A stretch of DNA of 64,000 bases from Yeosuana aromativorans. GTDB lineage: Bacteria; Bacteroidota; Bacteroidia; Flavobacteriales; Flavobacteriaceae. Numbering within the stretch: position 1 is the stretch's first letter; each line of letters starts with the position of its first letter. The notes beneath the pieces were generated by a model. It had not been told where the DNA came from. It made no database searches and saw only the letters and a list, made by a program, of their open reading frames with translations. The DNA is taken from positions 285,049 to 349,048 of the forward strand of contig NZ_BMNR01000003.1 in the NCBI RefSeq assembly GCF_014646655.1, in the 5' to 3' direction. This document shows positions 238 through 53,790 of the stretch, piece after piece. The translations under genes and the position numbers were made by a program.

Positions 238-714
238 TTAATCTTCTATTCCTGCTCTAACTTTAGAACCCGGTTTATTTAAAACTCTTGTTAGTGCTGT
301 TCTGTCATATACAGAATTCTCAAAGTTCTGTCCCCATTTAATGGCATCTGTTGGGCAAGCATCAATGCACAGACCACACATGGTGCACATGCTTAAATGG
401 TACACAAATTTGTCTATCTTTTTTTTCTTTTTACCCGTTACCTCATCAATCCCTCTATCCCAAATAATTTCAATGGTTCCATTAGGGCATGCTAATTCGC
501 ATTTTTGACATCCTGTACAGGCATGCTCGTTATTTTCGTCATGCGGCATAATAACTTCACCCCTAAACCTATCAAACATTTTTAGGGTTGCCCTATTATC
601 CGGATACTGCTGCGTAATGGCTCCTTTTCTAGCGTTTAAAAAGTACTTGCCCGTTACGCTCATCCCTGTGAGCAAGGTTTTAATTCCGTTATATATATTT
701 GAAAGATAGCTCAT
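238..714 (-). CDS. nuoI: NADH-quinone oxidoreductase subunit I (two 4Fe-4S clusters)
   Basis: This 158-residue protein is the TYKY/NuoI subunit joining the peripheral arm of complex I to the membrane arm. Two CxxCxxCxxxCP motifs are visible, at C66-C76 and C110-C120, and carry clusters N6a and N6b. They pass electrons towards NuoB. A lysine run near residues 95-99 lies between the motifs. It sits 3 bases after nuoH and 4 bases before nuoJ. With no NuoG in this operon, NuoI would be the outermost iron-sulfur subunit and the likely docking site for reduced ferredoxin; that role is an inference. Confidence 0.95.
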   Translation of the reverse strand: MSYLSNIYNGIKTLLTGMSVTGKYFLNARKGAITQQYPDNRATLKMFDRFRGEVIMPHDENNEHACTGCQKCELACPNGTIEIIWDRGIDEVTGKKKKKIDKFVYHLSMCTMCGLCIDACPTDAIKWGQNFENSVYDRTALTRVLNKPGSKVRAGIED

Positions 715-717
715 AAC

Positions 718-1803
718 TTAAAACTGAATTGTTAATTTTTGCCAAACCAAAAATGCCATAAGCATGATATTTATAAGGTTAATTGGCAACAAATATTTCC
801 ACTCTAAACTTAGCAACTGATCAATACGCAATCGTGGGAATGTCCATCTAAACCACATCATTAAAAACACCAAAATCAATGCTTTTAATAAAAACCAAAA
901 CACACCTAACCAAGGCAGTGATTCGGTTATTCCGAAAGGTGACAACCACGCTCCAAAAAAGACGGTTGTTGCTATACATGCTATGATAAACATGTTTATA
1001 AATTCTGCTAAAAAGAAGTAGGCAAACTTCATTCCTGAGTACTCGGTGTGAAACCCTGCCCCAAGTTCAGATTCGGCTTCAACCATATCAAACGGTGCTC
1101 GGTTTGTTTCTGCCGTTCCAGCAATCATATAAATCATAAAGGCAATAATAGCTGGTACATGCCCTTGAACAATAAGCCACCCGTGTTTTTGAGTTTCCAC
1201 AATCTCTGAAAGCTGTAGCGAGCCGGTCAATAACACCATAGTCAATAATGACAGCCCAATGGATAATTCATAACTAATGGTTTGCACGCCACTACGCATA
1301 GCACCAATTAAAGCAAACTTGTTATTGCTACTCCAACCTGCCAATAAAATACCAATGACACCAATAGACGATATAGCTATTAAAAAGAAAATGCCAATAT
1401 TAATATCGAAAGCTTGAAATCCTTGTGTGAAAGGGAATATACCAAGTGCCATTAACGATGTAATAATCACAAAATAAGGTGCCAAATTGTATAAAAATTT
1501 ATCAGCTCTATCGGTACCTGTTAATTCTTTTGAAACCAATTTCAAAGCATCGGCCATGGTTTGCAATAAGCCTTGAAACCCTACTCTATTTGGACCTAAA
1601 CGTAATTGAAACCAAGCGGCCACGCGGCGTTCTAACAATACAAGGTACAATCCGGCCACTGCAAAAATCATTAAGTAAATGACCGCAACAATTACCATGG
1701 CTGTAATGCTTGCTGCTCCTTCTGGCATAAAGCCCACCAACCAATCTTGGAATGTTTGCGTTATATTTAAAGCTATATTCATAGTATTCATATTATCTAT
1801 CAA
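718..1803 (-). CDS. nuoH: NADH-quinone oxidoreductase subunit H
   Basis: This 361-residue polytopic membrane protein forms the quinone-chamber floor and the joint between the arms of complex I. Family signatures visible include LLERRVAAWFQLRLGPNRVG near residue 60, the acidic segment NRAPFDMVEAESELGAGFH in the loop before the later helices, and WFRWTFPRLRIDQL near the C-terminus. The longest start overlaps the end of nuoD by 11 bases; ATGs at codons 5 and 8 are alternatives. That overlap leaves no room for nuoE, nuoF or nuoG, which lie between nuoD and nuoH in the 14-gene operon. Confidence 0.95.
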   Translation of the reverse strand: MIDNMNTMNIALNITQTFQDWLVGFMPEGAASITAMVIVAVIYLMIFAVAGLYLVLLERRVAAWFQLRLGPNRVGFQGLLQTMADALKLVSKELTGTDRADKFLYNLAPYFVIITSLMALGIFPFTQGFQAFDINIGIFFLIAISSIGVIGILLAGWSSNNKFALIGAMRSGVQTISYELSIGLSLLTMVLLTGSLQLSEIVETQKHGWLIVQGHVPAIIAFMIYMIAGTAETNRAPFDMVEAESELGAGFHTEYSGMKFAYFFLAEFINMFIIACIATTVFFGAWLSPFGITESLPWLGVFWFLLKALILVFLMMWFRWTFPRLRIDQLLSLEWKYLLPINLINIMLMAFLVWQKLTIQF

Positions 1804-2914
1804 TATCTGGTATCACAAGGTCAAGTGTAGCCATAATGGCTACTAAATCGGCTATTTTACTTCCAACGGCTATATGGTTCAATACCGATAAGTTTGAAAA
1901 CCCTGGTGACCTGAACTTAAGTCGGTACGGATTTTTAGTTCCAGTACTGATAATGTAAACTCCCAATTCACCACGTGCTGTTTCCACTTTTTGGTAGTAC
2001 TCCCCTTTAGGTAATTTTATAACCGCATTGGTTTGTACCCTAAAATCACCTTCAGGAATGTTGTCAATCAATTGTTCAATGATTGATAAGGATTCCCACA
2101 TTTCCTGAATTCTAACTTGGTAACGGGCGTACGTATCGCCTTCGGTTCTTAAAGCTTCTTTAAAAGTTACTTGATCCAATGCACTATATGGATGATGTTT
2201 TCTCACATCACAAGAATAGCCAGAGGCCCGACCAACCGGCCCTGAAACTCCAAAAGAAATAGCATCTTCTTTAGACAAAACCCCAACGCCCATAGTCCGC
2301 TTTTGGAAAATAACGTTGTTGCTCAACAACCGATCATATTCAGGGATTTTGGTTTTAAAATGCGCCACAAAATCCTTAACCCGTTTCACAAAGTTGGGAT
2401 GAATATCAAACATCAATCCTCCAGGTACGTTGTAGTTCATGGTTAAACGTGCACCGCATGTTTCCTCAAAAATATCATTGATCATTTCACGATCCCTAAA
2501 CCCATAAAAATATGTGGTCAAGGCACCTACATCCATTCCCATTACGCCCCACCACAAGCAGTGCGAAGCAATTCTGGTCAGTTCTCCAATAATGGTTCGT
2601 ATAACTTTAATGCGGTCAGTAACTTCTAGTTGCAAGGCGTTTTCAACGGCTAAACAAACCGCTTCGTTATTTATATTGGCCGACAAATAATCCATTCTAT
2701 CTGTAAGATGGACAATTTGTTGGTAGCTGTCACGCTCGCACATTTTTTCAATGGAACGGTGTATATACCCTAAATCTGGGTCTACTTTTTTAATAATTTC
2801 GCCATCAATGGTCAACAACAATCGCAATACACCATGTGTTGCAGGATGCTGAGGTCCCATATTGATAAAGTATTCTTCTGATTTGAAATTATTATTTACA
2901 ACGGTAGTTTCCAT
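1793..2914 (-). CDS. nuoD: NADH-quinone oxidoreductase subunit D
   Basis: This 373-residue subunit is related to the NiFe-hydrogenase large subunit and forms the quinone reduction site together with NuoB. The family opening MGPQHPATHGVLRL is present near residue 19, as is the C-terminal ending DLVIPDIDR. It is a separate protein, not fused to NuoC as in Escherichia coli. It starts 2 bases after nuoC and overlaps nuoH. The hydrogenase-type cysteines are absent, as usual for NuoD. Confidence 0.95.
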   Translation of the reverse strand: METTVVNNNFKSEEYFINMGPQHPATHGVLRLLLTIDGEIIKKVDPDLGYIHRSIEKMCERDSYQQIVHLTDRMDYLSANINNEAVCLAVENALQLEVTDRIKVIRTIIGELTRIASHCLWWGVMGMDVGALTTYFYGFRDREMINDIFEETCGARLTMNYNVPGGLMFDIHPNFVKRVKDFVAHFKTKIPEYDRLLSNNVIFQKRTMGVGVLSKEDAISFGVSGPVGRASGYSCDVRKHHPYSALDQVTFKEALRTEGDTYARYQVRIQEMWESLSIIEQLIDNIPEGDFRVQTNAVIKLPKGEYYQKVETARGELGVYIISTGTKNPYRLKFRSPGFSNLSVLNHIAVGSKIADLVAIMATLDLVIPDIDR

Positions 2915-2916
2915 AA

Positions 2917-3378
2917 CTATTTGATAACCATGTTAATTTCATCTTCATAATCCTTTCTCAAAGGAAACCCTTCCCATTCGTCGGTTAAAAAAAGGCGTTT
3001 TAAATTCGGATGATTATTGAATTGAATTCCGAAGAAATCAAAGACTTCGCGTTCATGAAATTCGGCTGTTCTCCATATATCACAAACCGAATCAAAGGTT
3101 GGGTTTTCCCTATCAGCTGTTTTGACTTTTACAACAATACGATGTCTGTGAGTAGTGGACTCTAAATGATATACAACACCTAATTCTGGTTGCCAATCCA
3201 CACCGCTTAAGCAGTACAAATAATCAAAACTGGTGTCTGAATTGCTTTTTAATTGTGACATTAATTTGTGGAGGTGTTCTGGCTGAACCGAAATATTCAA
3301 AAACTGGGATTCTTCTTCAGAAAATTCCAAGTCAGGAATCCAAGAACTAATCAAATTTTGTAAAGCTTCATTTGTCAT
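2917..3378 (-). CDS. nuoC: NADH-quinone oxidoreductase subunit C
   Basis: This 153-residue 30-kDa subunit of the peripheral arm carries the family core ending in REVFDFFGIQFNNHPNLKRL and the terminal RKDYE motif near residues 141-145. It packs against NuoD and has no cofactor. It lies between nuoB (11-base gap) and nuoD (2-base gap) in the operon. The length is typical of unfused NuoC. Confidence 0.93.
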   Translation of the reverse strand: MTNEALQNLISSWIPDLEFSEEESQFLNISVQPEHLHKLMSQLKSNSDTSFDYLYCLSGVDWQPELGVVYHLESTTHRHRIVVKVKTADRENPTFDSVCDIWRTAEFHEREVFDFFGIQFNNHPNLKRLFLTDEWEGFPLRKDYEDEINMVIK

Positions 3379-3389
3379 AACATACCGTT

Positions 3390-3971
3390 TTATTGACCCT
3401 CATCAAATCCATCAATCGGATTGGCTTTGTGTTTCATGTTTTCAGTTCGAATTTTATCTTGAAGCATCAACATACCTTCTAAAAGCGCTTCAGGCCGTGG
3501 TGGACATCCGGGCACATATACATCTACTGGAATAACGTGGTCAGCTCCTTTTACTACTGAATACGTATTGTAAAAAAATGGTCCTCCAGAAATAGCGCAA
3601 GCACCCATGGCAATAACGTATTTTGGTTCGGCCATTTGATCGTATAAGCGTCTTAAAACCGGTGCCATTTTATTGACAATGGTCCCTGCTATGATAATTA
3701 AATCTGCCTGACGTGGGGAAGGCCTTGCTACCTCAAAACCAAAACGTGAGTAGTCATGCCTGGCTGCACCTGTTTGCATCATTTCAATGGCACAACAACT
3801 GGTTCCAAAATAAAGTGACCACAATGAATTTGAGCGTCCCCAGTTTATGATTTTATCTAACGATGTAACTATGACATTGGCGCCGTTTCCGGCTGGAATG
3901 ACCTTTCCAGGAAAATCATCCGGTATCTGTGGTGTGTTTTCTATTCCCATTTCAATGCTCCTTTTTTCCAT
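3390..3971 (-). CDS. nuoB: NADH-quinone oxidoreductase subunit B (cluster N2)
   Basis: This subunit carries cluster N2, the last iron-sulfur centre before quinone. The ligand pattern is visible as SCCAIEM, then MGACAISGG, then PGCPPRPEA. The longest start gives 193 residues and overlaps nuoA by 31 bases. The methionine at codon 8 (position 3950) gives a 10-base overlap and is an equally reasonable start. The gene is coupled to nuoA by the overlap. Confidence 0.95.
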
Positions 3972-4291
3972 GCATACAATAATCCTAATCCTAAAATGAA
4001 TAAGAAAAGAAGTATCTCTATAAAGCCAACGGCTCCAAAATCTTTAAATACAACTGCCCAAGGCACTAAAAAGGCCACCTCTACATCAAAAACCAAAAAC
4101 AAGATGGCAAATAGATAGTAGCCCACTTTAAATTGTACCCAAGTAGGCCCAATGGTAGTCATCCCACTTTCGTAAGGCTCCCTTTTTTGGACGTTATCCG
4201 ATTTATGGGAAATTAAATTCGACAGGAAATTGGCTCCGGCAACCAGAACAATTCCGGCTATTAAAAATACGATGATGGCTTCTGATCCCAT
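3941..4291 (-). CDS. nuoA: NADH-quinone oxidoreductase subunit A
   Basis: This 116-residue protein has three transmembrane segments. Visible family signatures are the loop KREPYESGM near residues 36-44 and the second-helix stretch [15 protein letters not shown]. It is the first gene of the minus-strand operon nuoABCDHIJ. Its predicted promoter lies at 4315-4322 with a CRP/FNR-like palindrome just upstream, giving a leader of about 18 bases. This suggests the whole operon is switched from this point. Confidence 0.95.
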
Positions 4292-4314: not shown

Positions 4315-4322
4315 CAAAATTA
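4315..4322 (-). promoter_or_regulatory. Predicted -7 box of the nuo promoter
   Basis: On the minus strand these bases read TAATTTTG, a full match to the Bacteroidota -7 element TANNTTTG. No TTTG is seen at the usual -33 distance, as expected of an activator-dependent promoter. The predicted transcript start is near 4309. Confidence 0.55.
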
Positions 4323-4344
4323 GCGGTAATTATTGGCCTGTTTA

Positions 4345-4358
4345 ATGACTTAAGTCAG
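4345..4358. promoter_or_regulatory. CRP/FNR-like palindromic operator of nuo
   Basis: The bases ATGACTTAAGTCAG contain the perfect 12-base palindrome TGACTTAAGTCA. Its centre (4351.5) is 36.5 bases from the last base of the -7 box. That is about -42 from the inferred start, the class II activator position of CRP/FNR proteins. The same spacing recurs at the kor, fdx, nifJ and 53.75-kb promoters. Confidence 0.6.
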
Positions 4359-4391: not shown

Positions 4392-5405
4392 CTATTTTAC
4401 CATATATATTTCTCCTGAATAAAACAGGTCATTTGTTTTTGTAAACTTAGAGTTTGCTTTGACTTGTTTGGTTAAAGCATCTTCTCGTTCTTCAAAAGTG
4501 ACATCATCAAAACTTCTGATAATACCTGTTGCCAATGGATATTTTAACCGCACTAGCATTTGGTGCAATGTTGGATCTTTTTCTTTAGCGTCATGCACCA
4601 AAATATCGGCTTCTGTAATGCCATTTTCCCCAATGGTAACCACTTCTAGTTTCAATTTGTTTAACACCAATCCTTTGTCACGGTTTTTACCGAAAATCAT
4701 TGGTTTTCCATGTTCCAAGAAAATCTGCTTGTCTTCTTTTACGTCTTTACCGGTTACATTGCTATAACAGCCGTCATTAAAAATAACACAATTTTGTAAC
4801 ACCTCTATTAAAGAGGTCCCTTTAAATTTATGGGCTTCAATTAAAATCTGGGAAATATCCTTAGGCACATTTCCGCCTATTCTTGCAAAAAAGCGTGCAT
4901 TGGCGCCTAGAGCTAACTCGCCTGGACTAAATGGTGGCTGTGTGTTTCCGTAAGGTGATGATTTTGTTTTTTGACCTACTAATGATGTTGGTGAAAATTG
5001 CCCTTTTGTTAAGCCGTAGATTTCATTGTTGAACAACACAATATTCAAATCGATATTTCTGCGTAATACGTGAATAAAATGATTGCCACCAATGGCCATG
5101 GCGTCGCCATCGCCCGTCATGATCCAAACACTTAAATCTGGATTGGCAAGTTTAACACCTGTAGCAATACCCGGCGCTCTACCATGAATGGTGTGCATAC
5201 CGTATGTGTTCATATAATATGGAAAACGAGAGGAACATCCAATGCCTGAAATAAACACCACATCTTCTCGTTTTACACCCATTTCTGGAAGCGCTTTTTG
5301 CATAGAACGCAAAATAACATAGTCATCACATCCTGGGCACCACCTTACTTCCTGATCACTTTCAAAATCCCTGTACGTATATTTTTTTTCAACGATTGCT
5401 TCCAT
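4392..5405 (-). CDS. korB: 2-oxoacid:ferredoxin oxidoreductase, beta subunit (2-oxoglutarate type)
   Basis: This 337-residue protein is the thiamine diphosphate subunit of a two-subunit 2-oxoacid:ferredoxin oxidoreductase. It oxidises 2-oxoglutarate (or a related 2-oxoacid) with CoA and passes electrons through a [4Fe-4S] cluster to ferredoxin. Visible features are WCPGC (cysteines 23 and 26), GIGCSS (C57), the TPP/magnesium motif GDGDAMAIGG at about 98-107, and NNEIYG at about 126-131. It starts 2 bases after korA. Assignment to 2-oxoglutarate rests on similarity to the KorAB type of aerobic bacteria and could be another 2-oxoacid. Confidence 0.88.
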   Translation of the reverse strand: MEAIVEKKYTYRDFESDQEVRWCPGCDDYVILRSMQKALPEMGVKREDVVFISGIGCSSRFPYYMNTYGMHTIHGRAPGIATGVKLANPDLSVWIMTGDGDAMAIGGNHFIHVLRRNIDLNIVLFNNEIYGLTKGQFSPTSLVGQKTKSSPYGNTQPPFSPGELALGANARFFARIGGNVPKDISQILIEAHKFKGTSLIEVLQNCVIFNDGCYSNVTGKDVKEDKQIFLEHGKPMIFGKNRDKGLVLNKLKLEVVTIGENGITEADILVHDAKEKDPTLHQMLVRLKYPLATGIIRSFDDVTFEEREDALTKQVKANSKFTKTNDLFYSGEIYMVK

Positions 5406-5407
5406 AA

Positions 5408-7264
5408 TTATTTTACTAATTTTTTAAATTCATCAATCAGTTCATTATTTCCAAACGGTAACCCTTGCACCTTATTAAATTGCAAAAATTCAAAACCACT
5501 GAAATTCATCCGCAACACATTGGCAAACTGACCATTGTTTAATTCGCAAACCAAAATCTTTTTAAACCTTGATAATAGCTCTTTTGTGTTTTTTGGAAGT
5601 GGATTGATATAATTAAAGTGGGCAAATCCAATAGATTTATAGCCTTCTTGGTTTATCTGTTTAACTGCTGAGTGTAAAGACCCATAAGTGCCTCCCCAAC
5701 CAATTACCAATAAATCCCCGGAATCAGCAAATTCCGTTTTAATCTCAGGAATATAATTTTGAACACGTTTTACTTTTTCAGCCCTTAAATAAGTCATTTT
5801 TTCGTGATTCTCAGGAGCTTGGTTAACATTACCAGTTATACTGTCTTTTTCCAAACCTCCAACTCTGTGTTCTAATCCTGGCGTTCCTGGAATAGCCCAA
5901 TTACGAGCCAATGTCTTTTCATTTCGTGTATATGGATGCCAGTTTTCAACTGCCTCTTTGGTAATATTGTTTTTGATTTCTGGAAGTTGATCAACACTTT
6001 GTATTTTCCAAGGAGCTGATCCATTGGCAATATATCCATCGGTCAATAAAATAACTGGTGTCATATGCTCCAAGGCCAGTTTGGCTGCCTGAAACGCAAA
6101 ATCAAAACAGTTAGCCGGTGTGCTGGCTGCAATCACAATAACGGGACTTTCGCCATTTCTACCGTACATGGCCTGCATTAAGTCAGACTGCTCGGTTTTT
6201 GTTGGCAACCCGGTTGATGGACCACCACGCTGCACATTGACCACAACCAATGGTAATTCCATGGTCATTGCCAAACCTAAGGCTTCTCCTTTTAAGGCCA
6301 ATCCAGGTCCAGAGGTGGTAGTTATAGCTAAATCTCCCGCAAAGGACGCACCGATAGCTGATGCTATTCCAGCAATTTCATCTTCTGCTTGAAAAGCTTT
6401 GACCCCAAAATGTTTGTGTTTTACCAATTCATGTAATATGTCGGTGGCCGGTGTAATAGGATACGACCCTAAAAATAGCTCCAATCCCGATTTTTCGGCA
6501 GCAGCCAAGAATCCCCAAGCCGTTGCCGTGTTACCCATAATAACCCGATAGGTGCCAGAGGCCATTTTTGCTGGCGAAATGGTATAAGCGTTTGGTATGA
6601 GTTCCAGTGTTTCGGCAAAATAATACCCCGCATTCAACACCTTGGTATTGGCTTCAATCAAATGGGGTTTTGTTTTAAATTTTTTATTGAAAAAATCAAT
6701 AGTATGTTCTTTAGCACGTCCATACATCCAATATACCATACCTAGAGCAAACATGTTCTTGCTTCTGGTAATGGCTTTGTTGTCCAATCCTTCAACATCT
6801 TTCAAAGCTTCTTTGGTCAACGATGTCATATCCACCTGTATCACTCTATAATTGTCTAAACTATGATCTTCAAGCGGATTGGTTTCATATTGTGCCTTTT
6901 CCAGATTTTTTTTGGTAAACGCATCCGAATCTACTATTATAGTATGTCCAGGCTTTAATGCGTATAAATTGGTTTTCAAACCTGCTGGGTTCATGGCCAC
7001 CAATAAATCCAAATTATCGCCGGGTGTACTTACTTCTACACTGCCTATATGCACTTGGAATCCTGAAACGCCATATAAACTTCCTTGTGGCGCCCTGATC
7101 TCTGAAGGGTAATTTGGAAAGGTTGCAATATCATTTCCAAACATGGCAGACGTATCAGAAAACTGGGTTCCTGTCAACTGCATACCATCTCCTGAATCTC
7201 CAACAAACCGAATAACTACAGCTTCTAAAACTTCAGGTTGGATCTTCACTTTTTCTGTTAACAT
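5408..7264 (-). CDS. korA: 2-oxoacid:ferredoxin oxidoreductase, alpha subunit (gamma-alpha fusion)
   Basis: This 618-residue protein has an N-terminal gamma-type domain (about 15-200, with GDSGDGMQLTG near 22-32) fused to the alpha pyrimidine-binding domain (about 240-600, with GSYPITPATD and TTSGPGLALKGE). This is the usual architecture of the two-subunit enzyme, where KorA with KorB makes the active enzyme. It leads the korA-korB operon. Its promoter faces that of the ferredoxin gene and shares one palindromic operator with it, so the enzyme and its electron acceptor are probably expressed together. Confidence 0.9.
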   Translation of the reverse strand: MLTEKVKIQPEVLEAVVIRFVGDSGDGMQLTGTQFSDTSAMFGNDIATFPNYPSEIRAPQGSLYGVSGFQVHIGSVEVSTPGDNLDLLVAMNPAGLKTNLYALKPGHTIIVDSDAFTKKNLEKAQYETNPLEDHSLDNYRVIQVDMTSLTKEALKDVEGLDNKAITRSKNMFALGMVYWMYGRAKEHTIDFFNKKFKTKPHLIEANTKVLNAGYYFAETLELIPNAYTISPAKMASGTYRVIMGNTATAWGFLAAAEKSGLELFLGSYPITPATDILHELVKHKHFGVKAFQAEDEIAGIASAIGASFAGDLAITTTSGPGLALKGEALGLAMTMELPLVVVNVQRGGPSTGLPTKTEQSDLMQAMYGRNGESPVIVIAASTPANCFDFAFQAAKLALEHMTPVILLTDGYIANGSAPWKIQSVDQLPEIKNNITKEAVENWHPYTRNEKTLARNWAIPGTPGLEHRVGGLEKDSITGNVNQAPENHEKMTYLRAEKVKRVQNYIPEIKTEFADSGDLLVIGWGGTYGSLHSAVKQINQEGYKSIGFAHFNYINPLPKNTKELLSRFKKILVCELNNGQFANVLRMNFSGFEFLQFNKVQGLPFGNNELIDEFKKLVK

Positions 7265-7324: not shown

Positions 7325-7332
7325 CAAATATA
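7325..7332 (-). promoter_or_regulatory. Predicted -7 box of the korAB promoter
   Basis: On the minus strand this reads TATATTTG, a full match to TANNTTTG. Its last base is 36.5 bases from the centre of the palindrome at 7355-7368. The predicted start is near 7319, giving a leader of about 55 bases. Confidence 0.55.
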
Positions 7333-7354
7333 ATTTCACTTTTTATTTTGAAAT

Positions 7355-7368
7355 ATGATTTATGTCAT
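7355..7368. promoter_or_regulatory. Shared CRP/FNR-like operator between korA and ferredoxin
   Basis: ATGATTTATGTCAT has arms ATGA and TCAT around six bases. The centre, 7361.5, is exactly 36.5 bases from the last base of the predicted -7 boxes on both sides (7325 leftward for korA, 7398 rightward for the ferredoxin). One dimer could therefore activate both divergent promoters from a class II position. Confidence 0.6.
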
Positions 7369-7390
7369 TAAAAAGAATTCAAATTAGGAT

Positions 7391-7398
7391 TAATATTG
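7391..7398 (+). promoter_or_regulatory. Predicted -7 box of the ferredoxin promoter
   Basis: TAATATTG matches five of the six fixed positions of TANNTTTG. It was chosen because it ends exactly 36.5 bases from the centre of the palindrome. The predicted start is near 7404, about 26 bases before the ATG. Confidence 0.45.
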
Positions 7399-7429: not shown

Positions 7430-7780
7430 ATGGCTATAATTATAACAGATGAATGTATAAACTGCGATGCATGTGTTTCAGAATGTCCCAACAACGCAAT
7501 TTATGAGCCAGATCAAAATTGGTCTTACTCTGATGAAACTGCCTTAAGCGGAACCGTAACTACTCCTTATGGAAAAGAGGTTGATGCCGATGCAGAAAAC
7601 GACCCAATTTCAGACGAATTTTATTTTATTGTTTCTGATAAATGTACCGAGTGTAAAGGATTCCATGATGAACCACAATGTGCTTCTGTTTGCCCAGTTG
7701 ACTGTTGCGTTCCTGATGAAAACCATGTTGAAACAGAAGCTCAGCTTTTAGCTAAAAAAGCTTGGTTGCACGGCGAATAA
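7430..7780 (+). CDS. 2[4Fe-4S] ferredoxin, Alvin type
   Basis: This 116-residue ferredoxin has a first cluster motif with cysteines 9, 12, 15 and 19. The second is C72-x2-C75-x8-C84-x3-C88, and its eight-residue gap is the hallmark of the Allochromatium (Alvin) type. About 50 residues separate the motifs, more than in short clostridial ferredoxins, and the protein is strongly acidic. Flanked by two ferredoxin-dependent oxidoreductases, it is the probable soluble carrier between KorAB, NifJ and a quinone-reducing acceptor. The latter may be the nearby complex I; that link is an inference. Confidence 0.9.
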   Translation: MAIIITDECINCDACVSECPNNAIYEPDQNWSYSDETALSGTVTTPYGKEVDADAENDPISDEFYFIVSDKCTECKGFHDEPQCASVCPVDCCVPDENHVETEAQLLAKKAWLHGE

Positions 7781-7950: not shown

Positions 7951-7964
7951 ATGATAAATATCAT
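7951..7964. promoter_or_regulatory. Upstream CRP/FNR-like site of nifJ
   Basis: ATGATAAATATCAT is a near-perfect palindrome of the same form as the operators at 4345 and 7355. Its centre is 42 bases, about four helical turns, upstream of the second nifJ site, so two dimers would bind the same DNA face. Confidence 0.45.
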
Positions 7965-7992: not shown

Positions 7993-8006
7993 CTGACATA
8001 AGTCAT
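7993..8006. promoter_or_regulatory. Promoter-proximal CRP/FNR-like site of nifJ
   Basis: CTGACATAAGTCAT contains TGACATAAGTCA. Counting 36.5 bases from its centre (7999.5) reaches the last base of a weak -7 candidate, TAATTTCA at 8029-8036, which keeps four of the six fixed positions. The spacing is that of the nuo and kor promoters. Confidence 0.5.
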
Positions 8007-8076
8007 AGAATTAGTTATACACTATTTATAATTTCACATCCTATTAAATTTCTGAAAATTAACAAAATATAAAATC

Positions 8077-11000
8077 ATGGAAAAAGGATTTGAAAAGCTC
8101 ATTTGTGATGCCAATGAAGCAGTTGCCAGAGTTGCACATAAAACCAATGAAGTCTGTGCCATTTATCCTATAACACCAGCGTCCCCTATGGGAGAGCACG
8201 TGGATGTTTATAGCTCTAAAGGCCAAAAAAATATTTGGAACAATATTCCAAGAATTGTTGAAATGCAAAGTGAAGGTGGTGCTGCTGGTGCCGTTCACGG
8301 TTCGCTTCAAGCAGGCGCCTTAACAACCACGTTTACAGCGTCTCAGGGATTATTACTTATGATTCCTAATATGTATAAAATAGCTGGGGAATTATTACCA
8401 AGCGTTATCCATGTTGCCGCAAGAACCATTGCCACGCACGCCTTATCTATTTTTGGTGACCATTCTGATGTTATGGCCACAAGACAAACAGGTTTTGCTA
8501 TGTTGTTTGGTAGTTCTGTACAAGAAGCCCAGGATTTTGCGCTTATTTCGCAGGTGGCAACCTTAAAATCCAGAGTTCCATTTTTAAATATTTTTGATGG
8601 ATTTAGAACCTCCCATGAAATATCAAAAATTGATGGTATTCCTGATAGTATCATTAAAGCTATGATGCCAGAGGATAAAATCATGGAACACAAAAAACGC
8701 TCTTTAGATCCTGATCATCCTGTTGTAAGAGGAACCTCCCAAAACCCGGATGTATTTTTCCAAGCCCGTGAAGCGGCTAATCCATTTTATCAAAAAGTGC
8801 CAGAAATCGTGCAAAACACGATGGACGAATTTTTTGCCCATACTGGCAGACGCTATAATTTATTTGATTATGTAGGACACCCCGAAGCAGAACGTGTCAT
8901 TATTATTATGGGATCTGGTGAAGGTGCTGTTAGGGAGACCATTAACGAACTCGTGGAAAGAGATGAAAAAGTAGGTGCTATTTTTGTACGCTTGTTCAGA
9001 CCATTCTCCATTAAAAACTTTGTTGATGTGTTACCTAAAACCGTTCAAAAAATTGCCGTTTTAGACAGAACTAAAGAACCAGGAAGTATTGGTGAACCAT
9101 TATATTTAGACATTATCTCTGCATTAAATGAAAGCGATAGAGACATGCCAATCGTGGTCGGCGGCCGTTATGGTTTATCTTCAAAAGAGTTTAACCCTAG
9201 AATGGTAAAAGGTATTTATGATGAGCTGCTAAAAAGCAAACCTAAAAACCACTTTACCGTTGGTATTTATGATGATGTAACCCACACCAACCTAGAAATT
9301 GATGATTATTTCTCTGTAAAACGAACCACTATTAACTGTATGTTCTACGGTTTAGGATCGGATGGTACAGTGGGTGCCAATAAAAACTCCATTAAAATTA
9401 TTGGTGATACCACCGATAATTATGTACAAGGATATTTTGTGTACGACTCTAAAAAAGCAGGTGCACAAACCATATCACATTTGCGTTTTGGCCCAGAACC
9501 AATTCATTCTACTTATTTAATTGATAAAGCCGATTTTATTGCCAGTCATCAATTTAATTTTATTGAAAAATACAATATGCTATCCGATTTAAAATTGGGT
9601 GGTACCTTTTTATTGAATTCGCCTTTTTCAAAAGATGAAATCTGGAATGAGTTGCCTAAAAAACTTCAAAAGGAAATCATTGAAAAAGAAGCTGAATTTT
9701 ATGTGATTGATGCCAGTAAAGTGGCTCATGATGCAAAATTAGGAAAACGTGCCAATACGGTTTTACAAACGTGTTTCTTTGCTATCTCTGGAATTTTACC
9801 AAAAGATGAAGCCATCCAAAAAATCAAGGATGCCATTGTAAAATCCTATTCACATAAAGGAGAAAAAGTTGTAAAAATGAATTTTAATGCGGTTGATAAA
9901 GCGCTAGAAAATTTACAAAAAGTTGAGTATCCAAAAACATCCAATAGCGAAAAACCATTATTATCTGCCATGACTGACGCTCCTGATGGATTTGTAAAAG
10001 AAGTCTTGGAAAAAATATTGGCTGGCGCTGGCGATGATCTACCAGTAAGTGCATTCCCTGTTGACGGAACCTTCCCAACAGGAACCACACAATATGAAAA
10101 ACGTGGTATAGCAGACTTTGTTCCTGTTTGGGATGATGAAAACCTGTGTACACAATGTAATAAATGTGTGGCCATTTGTCCGCATGCAGCCATTAGATCA
10201 AAAGTGGTTTCTAATGATATGTTAGCCGATGCGCCATCATCATTAAAAGCAGTTCCCGCAAAAGGAAGGCCTTTTAATTCTGAAACCGAATCATATGTGC
10301 TTCAAGTATCACCAGAAGATTGTACCGGATGTGATCTTTGTGTAGCTGTTTGTCCTGCCGTTAGTAAAGAAATTGATGATTTCAAATCTATCAACATGAC
10401 CAAAAAACTAGATATAAAAGATAGAGAAATTGCCAACTGGGATTACTTTGTAAACTTACCTTACTACGACCGTAATGAGTTACAAATTACCAACGTTAAA
10501 GGCTCTCAGTTCTTAGAACCATTATTTGAGTTCTCTGGTGCTTGCTCTGGTTGTGGTGAAACGCCTTATATTAAATTGCTTACCCAATTATATGGTGATA
10601 GTATTTTAATAGCCAATGCCACAGGATGTTCTTCAATTTACGGAGGTAACCTTCCAACCACACCTTATAAAACCAATGAATTTGGTAGAGGTCCTGCTTG
10701 GGCTAACTCCTTATTTGAAGATAATGCCGAATTTGGTTTAGGTATGCGATTAGCACTGACCAAAAAACAAGAAATCGCGGTTGATTTATTAAAATCGTTG
10801 GAATTCTTGGTAGGCAGTGAAATTGTAGAATCAATCTTAAATAATCCTGAAAGTACAGAAACCGAAAAAGCAAAAAAAATAGCAGACATTGAAGAACTCA
10901 AGAAAACACTCAAAATTCTTGACAACAACGATGATGCTATCAAACTGAGCAACTTAACCGAGTACTTACGTAAAAAAGCCGTTTGGATACTAGGTGGTGA

Positions 11001-11610
11001 CGGTTGGGCTTACGACATAGGATATGGTGGTGTTGACCATGTGTTGGCTTCTGGAGAAGATATCAACATTTTGATAATGGATACCGAAGTATACTCCAAT
11101 ACTGGTGGTCAAACCTCAAAAGCTACGCCACTAGGCGCCAGTGCTAAGTTCTCCGTATCCGGAAAACGAACCAGTAAGAAAAGCTTAGGATTACAAGCCA
11201 TTTCTTATCAAAATGTATATGTGGCCCAAATTGCAATAGGTGCTAAAGATTTACAAACACTTAAAGCTATTGAAGAAGCTGCAGCTTATCCAGGACCATC
11301 TGTTATCATTGCTTATTCACATTGTGGTGAACACGGTTACGACTTAAAACATGGTGCTGAGCAACAAGAAAAAGCTGTAGAATCAGGTTACTGGCCATTA
11401 TTTAGATTTGACCCACAACAACCAAAAGGCAAAAAGTTCAAGTTAGATTCTAAAAAACCGACCATTCCGTTACGTGATTTCATGTACAATGAAACCCGAT
11501 TTACAAGGGTGGTAAAAGATGATGCTGTATTAGGTAAATCATTACTTGACCAAGCTCAAGAGGAAGTTGATTCAAAATGGGAACGCCTAGAACTTTACAG
11601 GGACATGTAA
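8077..11610 (+). CDS. nifJ: Pyruvate:ferredoxin (flavodoxin) oxidoreductase, single chain
   Basis: This 1177-residue homodimer-type enzyme oxidises pyruvate with CoA to acetyl-CoA and CO2, reducing ferredoxin. It has the full single-chain domain order. The N-terminal pyrimidine-binding region contains YPITPASPMGE. CoA-binding and gamma-like domains follow. An inserted bacterial ferredoxin domain has cysteines 691/694/697/701 and 749/752/755/759. The C-terminal TPP domain has CSGCGETP (C823, C826) and GGDGWAYDIGYGG. Length matches the family. It follows the ferredoxin gene with its own promoter region, which carries two CRP/FNR-like sites, and is monocistronic. Confidence 0.95.
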   Translation: MEKGFEKLICDANEAVARVAHKTNEVCAIYPITPASPMGEHVDVYSSKGQKNIWNNIPRIVEMQSEGGAAGAVHGSLQAGALTTTFTASQGLLLMIPNMYKIAGELLPSVIHVAARTIATHALSIFGDHSDVMATRQTGFAMLFGSSVQEAQDFALISQVATLKSRVPFLNIFDGFRTSHEISKIDGIPDSIIKAMMPEDKIMEHKKRSLDPDHPVVRGTSQNPDVFFQAREAANPFYQKVPEIVQNTMDEFFAHTGRRYNLFDYVGHPEAERVIIIMGSGEGAVRETINELVERDEKVGAIFVRLFRPFSIKNFVDVLPKTVQKIAVLDRTKEPGSIGEPLYLDIISALNESDRDMPIVVGGRYGLSSKEFNPRMVKGIYDELLKSKPKNHFTVGIYDDVTHTNLEIDDYFSVKRTTINCMFYGLGSDGTVGANKNSIKIIGDTTDNYVQGYFVYDSKKAGAQTISHLRFGPEPIHSTYLIDKADFIASHQFNFIEKYNMLSDLKLGGTFLLNSPFSKDEIWNELPKKLQKEIIEKEAEFYVIDASKVAHDAKLGKRANTVLQTCFFAISGILPKDEAIQKIKDAIVKSYSHKGEKVVKMNFNAVDKALENLQKVEYPKTSNSEKPLLSAMTDAPDGFVKEVLEKILAGAGDDLPVSAFPVDGTFPTGTTQYEKRGIADFVPVWDDENLCTQCNKCVAICPHAAIRSKVVSNDMLADAPSSLKAVPAKGRPFNSETESYVLQVSPEDCTGCDLCVAVCPAVSKEIDDFKSINMTKKLDIKDREIANWDYFVNLPYYDRNELQITNVKGSQFLEPLFEFSGACSGCGETPYIKLLTQLYGDSILIANATGCSSIYGGNLPTTPYKTNEFGRGPAWANSLFEDNAEFGLGMRLALTKKQEIAVDLLKSLEFLVGSEIVESILNNPESTETEKAKKIADIEELKKTLKILDNNDDAIKLSNLTEYLRKKAVWILGGDGWAYDIGYGGVDHVLASGEDINILIMDTEVYSNTGGQTSKATPLGASAKFSVSGKRTSKKSLGLQAISYQNVYVAQIAIGAKDLQTLKAIEEAAAYPGPSVIIAYSHCGEHGYDLKHGAEQQEKAVESGYWPLFRFDPQQPKGKKFKLDSKKPTIPLRDFMYNETRFTRVVKDDAVLGKSLLDQAQEEVDSKWERLELYRDM

Positions 11611-53746: not shown

Positions 53747-53754
53747 CAAAATTA
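53747..53754 (-). promoter_or_regulatory. Predicted -7 box of the thioredoxin-like gene
   Basis: The minus strand reads TAATTTTG, a full TANNTTTG match, 20 bases before the start codon and 36.5 bases from the palindrome centre at 53783.5. Confidence 0.55.
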
Positions 53755-53776
53755 CAATCTTGCTATTTCTTTTTAG

Positions 53777-53790
53777 ATGATATTTGTCAT
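53777..53790. promoter_or_regulatory. CRP/FNR-like operator at the thioredoxin-like gene
   Basis: ATGATATTTGTCAT has the arms ATGA and TCAT around six bases, identical in form to the four sites at 4345-8006. No matching -7 box is found on the opposite side towards tag. Confidence 0.5.

Follow-up and report, generated by a model that had tools for sequence, protein, structure and literature searches.

In the 64,000-nucleotide stretch of Yeosuana aromativorans DNA analysed here (the window), a palindrome at positions 7355-7368 probably functions as a two-way class II operator of the FNR/FixK type, shared by the divergent genes korA and fdx for their activation at low oxygen. An earlier note on this DNA had proposed that one operator serves both directions and coordinates an enzyme with its electron acceptor. 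As far as can be judged from the sequence, this proposal is supported by the conservation of the palindrome, of the spacing and of the promoter boxes, by a predicted operator position of -41.5, by the content of the regulon and by the presence of matching regulators.

On the minus strand, korA (5408-7264; 618 amino acids, POR_N and POR domains) encodes the alpha subunit of a 2-oxoacid:ferredoxin oxidoreductase and korB (4392-5405; 337 amino acids, TPP_enzyme_C domain) encodes its beta subunit. Divergent from korA-korB, on the plus strand, fdx (7430-7780) codes for a 4Fe-4S dicluster ferredoxin of 116 amino acids with matches to Fer4 families; 3′ of it lies a plus-strand gene (8077-11610) whose product of 1177 amino acids, on the basis of length and sequence, we take to be a single-chain enzyme of the pyruvate:ferredoxin oxidoreductase (PFOR) family. 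Downstream of korB, nuoA, B, C, D, H and I are followed by genes read as nuoJ-N past the window edge, and this nuo operon (238-4291 of the window and beyond its edge) contains no nuoEFG in between. An 11-subunit complex I devoid of NuoEFG can be fed by reduced ferredoxin, and the location of such an operon beside kor and fdx points to a ferredoxin-fed complex I.

The operator, ATGATTTATGTCAT, is of the FNR/CRP-type form ATGA-N6-TCAT and has no strand of its own; its outer arms ATGA and TCAT match and its inner six bases are asymmetric. The korA promoter on the minus strand carries the -7 box TATATTTG at 7325-7332, a perfect match to TAnnTTTG, and the fdx promoter on the plus strand carries TAATATTG at 7391-7398, with one mismatch to the same consensus. 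The distance of 36.5 bases given in the earlier note for both directions is exact, as it separates the operator centre (7361.5) from the outer ends of the two boxes, at 7325 on the minus and 7398 on the plus strand. Mapped promoters of Flavobacterium psychrophilum place the sigma-A -7 box TAnnTTTG at -12 to -5 (PMC9723704). If this position is valid here, the operator centre falls at -41.5 of both promoters, and transcription is predicted to start at about 7320 for korA and about 7403 for fdx, 83 bp apart, with leaders of about 56 and 27 bases, respectively. A centre at -41.5, predicted in this case from the F. psychrophilum box, is where FNR/CRP activators of class II promoters classically bind; in E. 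coli, 19 of 23 FNR-activated promoters with known starts have their site at -41.5 +/-4 (PMC3688515). The spacing of 36.5 bases thus brings the dyad near -41.5 on both sides, relative to starts that in Yeosuana are predicted. In the window, the operator pattern TGAYNNNNRTCA occurs 13 times versus 4.4 expected, a number reached in 0 of 100 shuffles. The combination of operator, 23 bases and a box with at most one mismatch is found five times versus 0.20 expected (0 of 100 shuffles equal this count), and the two sides of the 7355-7368 site represent two of these five matches. The korA-side spacer (7333-7350) also holds a TAAAAAGTGAAA stretch on the minus strand, which is kept in most relatives and might be a further element.

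The conservation of this arrangement was assessed in 46 intergenic regions from two sets of relatives, the window's own region counted, in which korA is divergent from this ferredoxin gene. The TGA-N6-TCA core is kept in 44 of them and is missing in two; the operator arms (TCA) show 100% conservation, compared with about 50% in most flanking columns. In the 44 regions, boxes with at most one mismatch were profiled outward from the operator centre, at offsets from 18.5 to 59.5. On the korA side such a box is present at 36.5 in 42 of the 44 regions and is perfect in 34, and on the fdx side it is present at 36.5 in 31 regions and at 35.5 in a further 7, being perfect in 9. All remaining offsets, on both sides, score between 0 and 3 of 44. 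The fdx box is, in other words, weaker and more variable among relatives than the korA box.

A second operator, CTGACATAAGTCAT, precedes the PFOR gene on the plus strand (7993-8006), with a weak box, TAATTTCA, at 8029-8036, again 36.5 bases from its centre. In the fdx-PFOR gaps of relatives the palindrome is found in 28 of 36 cases, and in all 28 the best box stands at the 23-base gap, with at most one mismatch in 18 and two mismatches in 10. These PFOR promoters show the weak TAATTTTA/TAATTTCA form of the box. As the PFOR gene has its own conserved operator, the enzyme, its ferredoxin and a second ferredoxin-reducing enzyme all bear the element. Upstream of the PFOR operator, at 7951-7964, there is an extra palindrome, ATGATAAATATCAT, with no box at the usual distance. 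A further operator, CTGACTTAAGTCAT, precedes nuoA together with a perfect box, TAATTTTG (4315-4357, minus strand). This site was considered as a widely conserved member of the group and rejected as such, since just 4 of the 13 relatives in which nuoA lies beside korB have it, and it is therefore lineage-limited.

The same element recurs throughout the genome. The pattern TGAYNNNNRTCA followed by 22-24 bases and TAnnTTTG gives 18 matches in the organism's own genome versus 0 for the reversed pattern; about three of the 18 fall within reading frames and could be chance matches. By inspection of the sequences, the sites precede, among others, hemN, hemA, nuoA, korA, moeA, a universal-stress gene and ccsBA-like, PPDK-like and thioredoxin-like genes, and one lies between a cytochrome c gene and a divergent gene for an Rrf2-type regulator. 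With one mismatch allowed in the box, the element is also found before ccoNO, of the cbb3 oxidase operon, and between an fnr-like gene and ccoI. The content of this regulon is microaerobic, comprising cco, hemN, moeA, complex I and oxygen-labile oxidoreductases. Within the window, the site before the thioredoxin-like gene (53747-53789, minus strand) consists of an operator and a perfect box, divergent from a DNA glycosylase-like gene. In 149 Flavobacteriaceae genomes, the operator-box pattern with fixed gap occurs 1163 times versus 21 for the reversed control, corresponding to a background of about 0.14 sites per genome, and in a sample of 118 genomes from the phylum it is frequent within the class to which the family belongs and seldom seen outside it.

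The earlier note had called the two-way symmetry unusual, a description that proves too strong. Among 397 Flavobacteriaceae genomes, 58 contain palindromes flanked by a perfect box on either side, at 67 places in total, versus one place for the control. The 149 genomes mentioned above contain 33 two-way places beside the 1163 one-sided matches, that is, about 3%, where roughly 2 would be expected under independence, as estimated from base composition. Among 30 two-way places that were inspected, 13 lie between cytochrome c and Rrf2 genes and 6 between korA and fdx, one of the latter being cut by a contig end. Divergent gene pairs use the two-way design repeatedly, though in a minority of cases, and it is not a unique feature of this locus. 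In the cytochrome c//Rrf2 regions (L149, L150, L155 and similar, position 1500 onward) the two-way operator is accompanied by an AAGAY-N6-RTCTT inverted repeat, which adjoins the Rrf2 -7 box and is perhaps the Rrf2 protein's own site.

These data bear on the alternative that the operator works in one direction only, with korA alone being activated and fdx being transcribed from another promoter or at a basal level. The weakness of the fdx box, with its one mismatch in the window and its perfect form in only 9 of 44 regions compared with 34 of 44 for korA, would favor this arrangement. However, 38 of 44 loci have an fdx-side box with at most one mismatch at 35.5 or 36.5, and such boxes hardly occur at other offsets; the weak TAATTTTA/TAATTTCA form is also used by PFOR promoters of the same regulon, and many relatives have two perfect boxes. 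One-way control of korA is accordingly regarded as improbable, and the two-way reading is preferred.

Two candidate regulators emerge among the 13 matches to the CRP-type cNMP_binding family in the genome. The first, an FNR-like protein of 225 amino acids, is encoded beside the cbb3 oxidase cluster and scores above cut-off for both PF00027 and PF13545, that is, for the cNMP-binding fold and the Crp-type helix-turn-helix. It aligns to Aliivibrio FNR across residues 4-222, and its recognition helix is of the ES(T/A)IR type, with the Glu and Arg four residues apart that characterize FNR. Cysteines C4, C7, C53 and C106 are invariant in 21 of 21 orthologues, three of them (C4, C7 and C106) matching cysteines of Aliivibrio FNR in the alignment. 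With respect to the E. coli protein, the equivalents of C20, C23 and C122 are invariant in all 21, C29 is absent and another invariant cysteine is C53. An iron-sulphur cluster is likely, though less than certain in view of the missing C29 position, and the FNR-like protein is probably an iron-sulphur sensor. The second candidate is a fusion of a receiver domain to a CRP domain (351 amino acids), whose gene overlaps that of a FixL-like kinase (contig C5, 58202-59446). The PAS domain of the kinase has FixL and DosP as best PDB matches and keeps the heme-His position, and it is joined to HisKA and HATPase_c domains; the protein has the features of a heme-PAS kinase, with heme binding being predicted. 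An FNR-type recognition helix, E--IR, is present in both receiver-CRP proteins. Kinase and receiver-CRP genes adjoin in 12 of 12 relatives examined, with an operator-box pair after them in nearly all. In Yeosuana itself, the kinase, the receiver-CRP and a universal-stress gene are consecutive at C5:58202-61439 (L146 6202-9439), an order kept in relatives, and the operator-box pair precedes the universal-stress gene.

The number of operators per genome follows the presence of the FNR-like and receiver-CRP genes. Specifically, the median count is 15 in the 34 genomes that encode both proteins, 6 in the 57 that have only the FNR-like protein, 8 in the 30 that have only the receiver-CRP and 0 in the 28 that lack both, an association that is correlative, given that these are raw counts from 149 non-independent genomes uncorrected for relatedness or genome size. 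The assignment of the operator to a single regulator was rejected, as many sites are kept in genomes with the FNR-like protein alone or the receiver-CRP alone.

The same geometry could also be read by another protein of the family, CRP-like or sensing nitric oxide, that responds to a signal other than oxygen. The 13 cNMP_binding matches in the genome leave room for such a protein, the TGA-N6-TCA core is common to the whole superfamily, and carbon sensing of the MalR-like kind has been predicted for some CRP/FNR proteins of Flavobacteriales (PMC8510549). Nevertheless, a non-oxygen signal seems slightly less probable even than one-way control, in view of the microaerobic content of the regulon and of motif counts that follow the FNR-like protein with its invariant cysteines and the FixL-like kinase/receiver-CRP pair; MalR-like carbon sensing in particular was not adopted because the regulon is microaerobic. 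Repression is very unlikely. CRP/FNR proteins can repress, and one dimer between the promoters could hinder both polymerases, but the rigid -41.5 spacing, found at the 1163 family sites and on both sides here, is an activator signature, whereas the sites at which E. coli FNR represses vary in position, from upstream of -35 to overlapping the start (PMC3688515). Finally, a chance arrangement, for which AT-rich intergenic DNA would offer many TAnnTTTG-like octamers, has a negligible probability, being contradicted by the shuffles, by the reversed-pattern controls and by conservation in 44 of 46 loci, the decisive test by which the arrangement at 7355-7368 is not fortuitous.

We infer the direction of control and the signal of the two-way operator from its position, from the regulon content and from the sensor domains, and the following mechanism can be proposed. 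Upon a fall in oxygen, the FNR-like protein, the receiver-CRP under the control of the neighbouring FixL-like heme-PAS kinase, or both, would bind operators of this class. A dimer at 7355-7368 would sit at -41.5 relative to both promoters, that of korA on the minus strand and that of fdx on the plus strand, with each subunit promoter-proximal for its own side and able to contact the polymerase there through its sigma and alpha subunits, in place of a poor -33 element. As each subunit is proximal for one promoter, the same bound dimer could recruit polymerase either way. The bound dimer would thereby raise KorAB and its ferredoxin together, and PFOR and, in this genome, nuoA of the complex I without NuoEFG would respond through the same element. 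More tentatively, and with somewhat less than even confidence, it may be that two independent oxygen sensors, the FNR-like protein with its non-canonical cysteines and the FixL-like kinase acting through the receiver-CRP, converge on one operator class in Flavobacteriaceae, and that a single dimer at kor//fdx and cytochrome c//Rrf2 is a true two-way class II activator, holding or alternating two polymerases 83 bp apart.

Oxygen control in Bacteroidota is poorly described. Our literature search returned no direct match for a Flavobacterium FNR box, for single-site divergent class II promoters or for FixL/receiver-CRP fusions of Bacteroidota, and no published operator of the TGAYNNNNRTCA-N23-TAnnTTTG kind was found in the papers searched. 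This pattern constitutes a precise and testable regulon code for a large family, tied to two candidate sensors.

Similarities to known systems can nonetheless be drawn. In analogy with the class II promoters of E. coli FNR (PMC3688515), which usually have one site per promoter, the element described here combines a TGA-N6-TCA dyad at a predicted -41.5 with low-oxygen respiratory genes. It differs in the Bacteroidota TAnnTTTG core promoter, in flanks of the ATGAY/RTCAT rather than TTGAT/ATCAA type, and in the use of one site for two promoters at identical distance. In rhizobia, FnrN and FixK, the latter through the hFixL-FxkR-FixK cascade, share the anaerobox (PMC7888657). Similarly, FNR-type and FixL-type branches appear to meet on one operator here, with the cbb3 oxidase among the targets. 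Unlike in rhizobia, the partner of the FixL-like kinase is a protein in which the receiver is joined straight to a CRP/FNR domain, and no separate FixJ/FxkR-to-FixK step was seen at the kinase locus. The closeness of two opposed promoters also recalls the bidirectional promoters of E. coli (Warman et al., PMC12825309), in which one short region drives both strands and competition between polymerases is likewise at issue: there, a symmetric -10 element is shared and an activated polymerase blocks the opposite direction, whereas at kor//fdx each direction has its own -7 box and the part in common is the putative activator site. Natural two-way class II promoters of this kind let one ask whether a single activator dimer serves two polymerases simultaneously.
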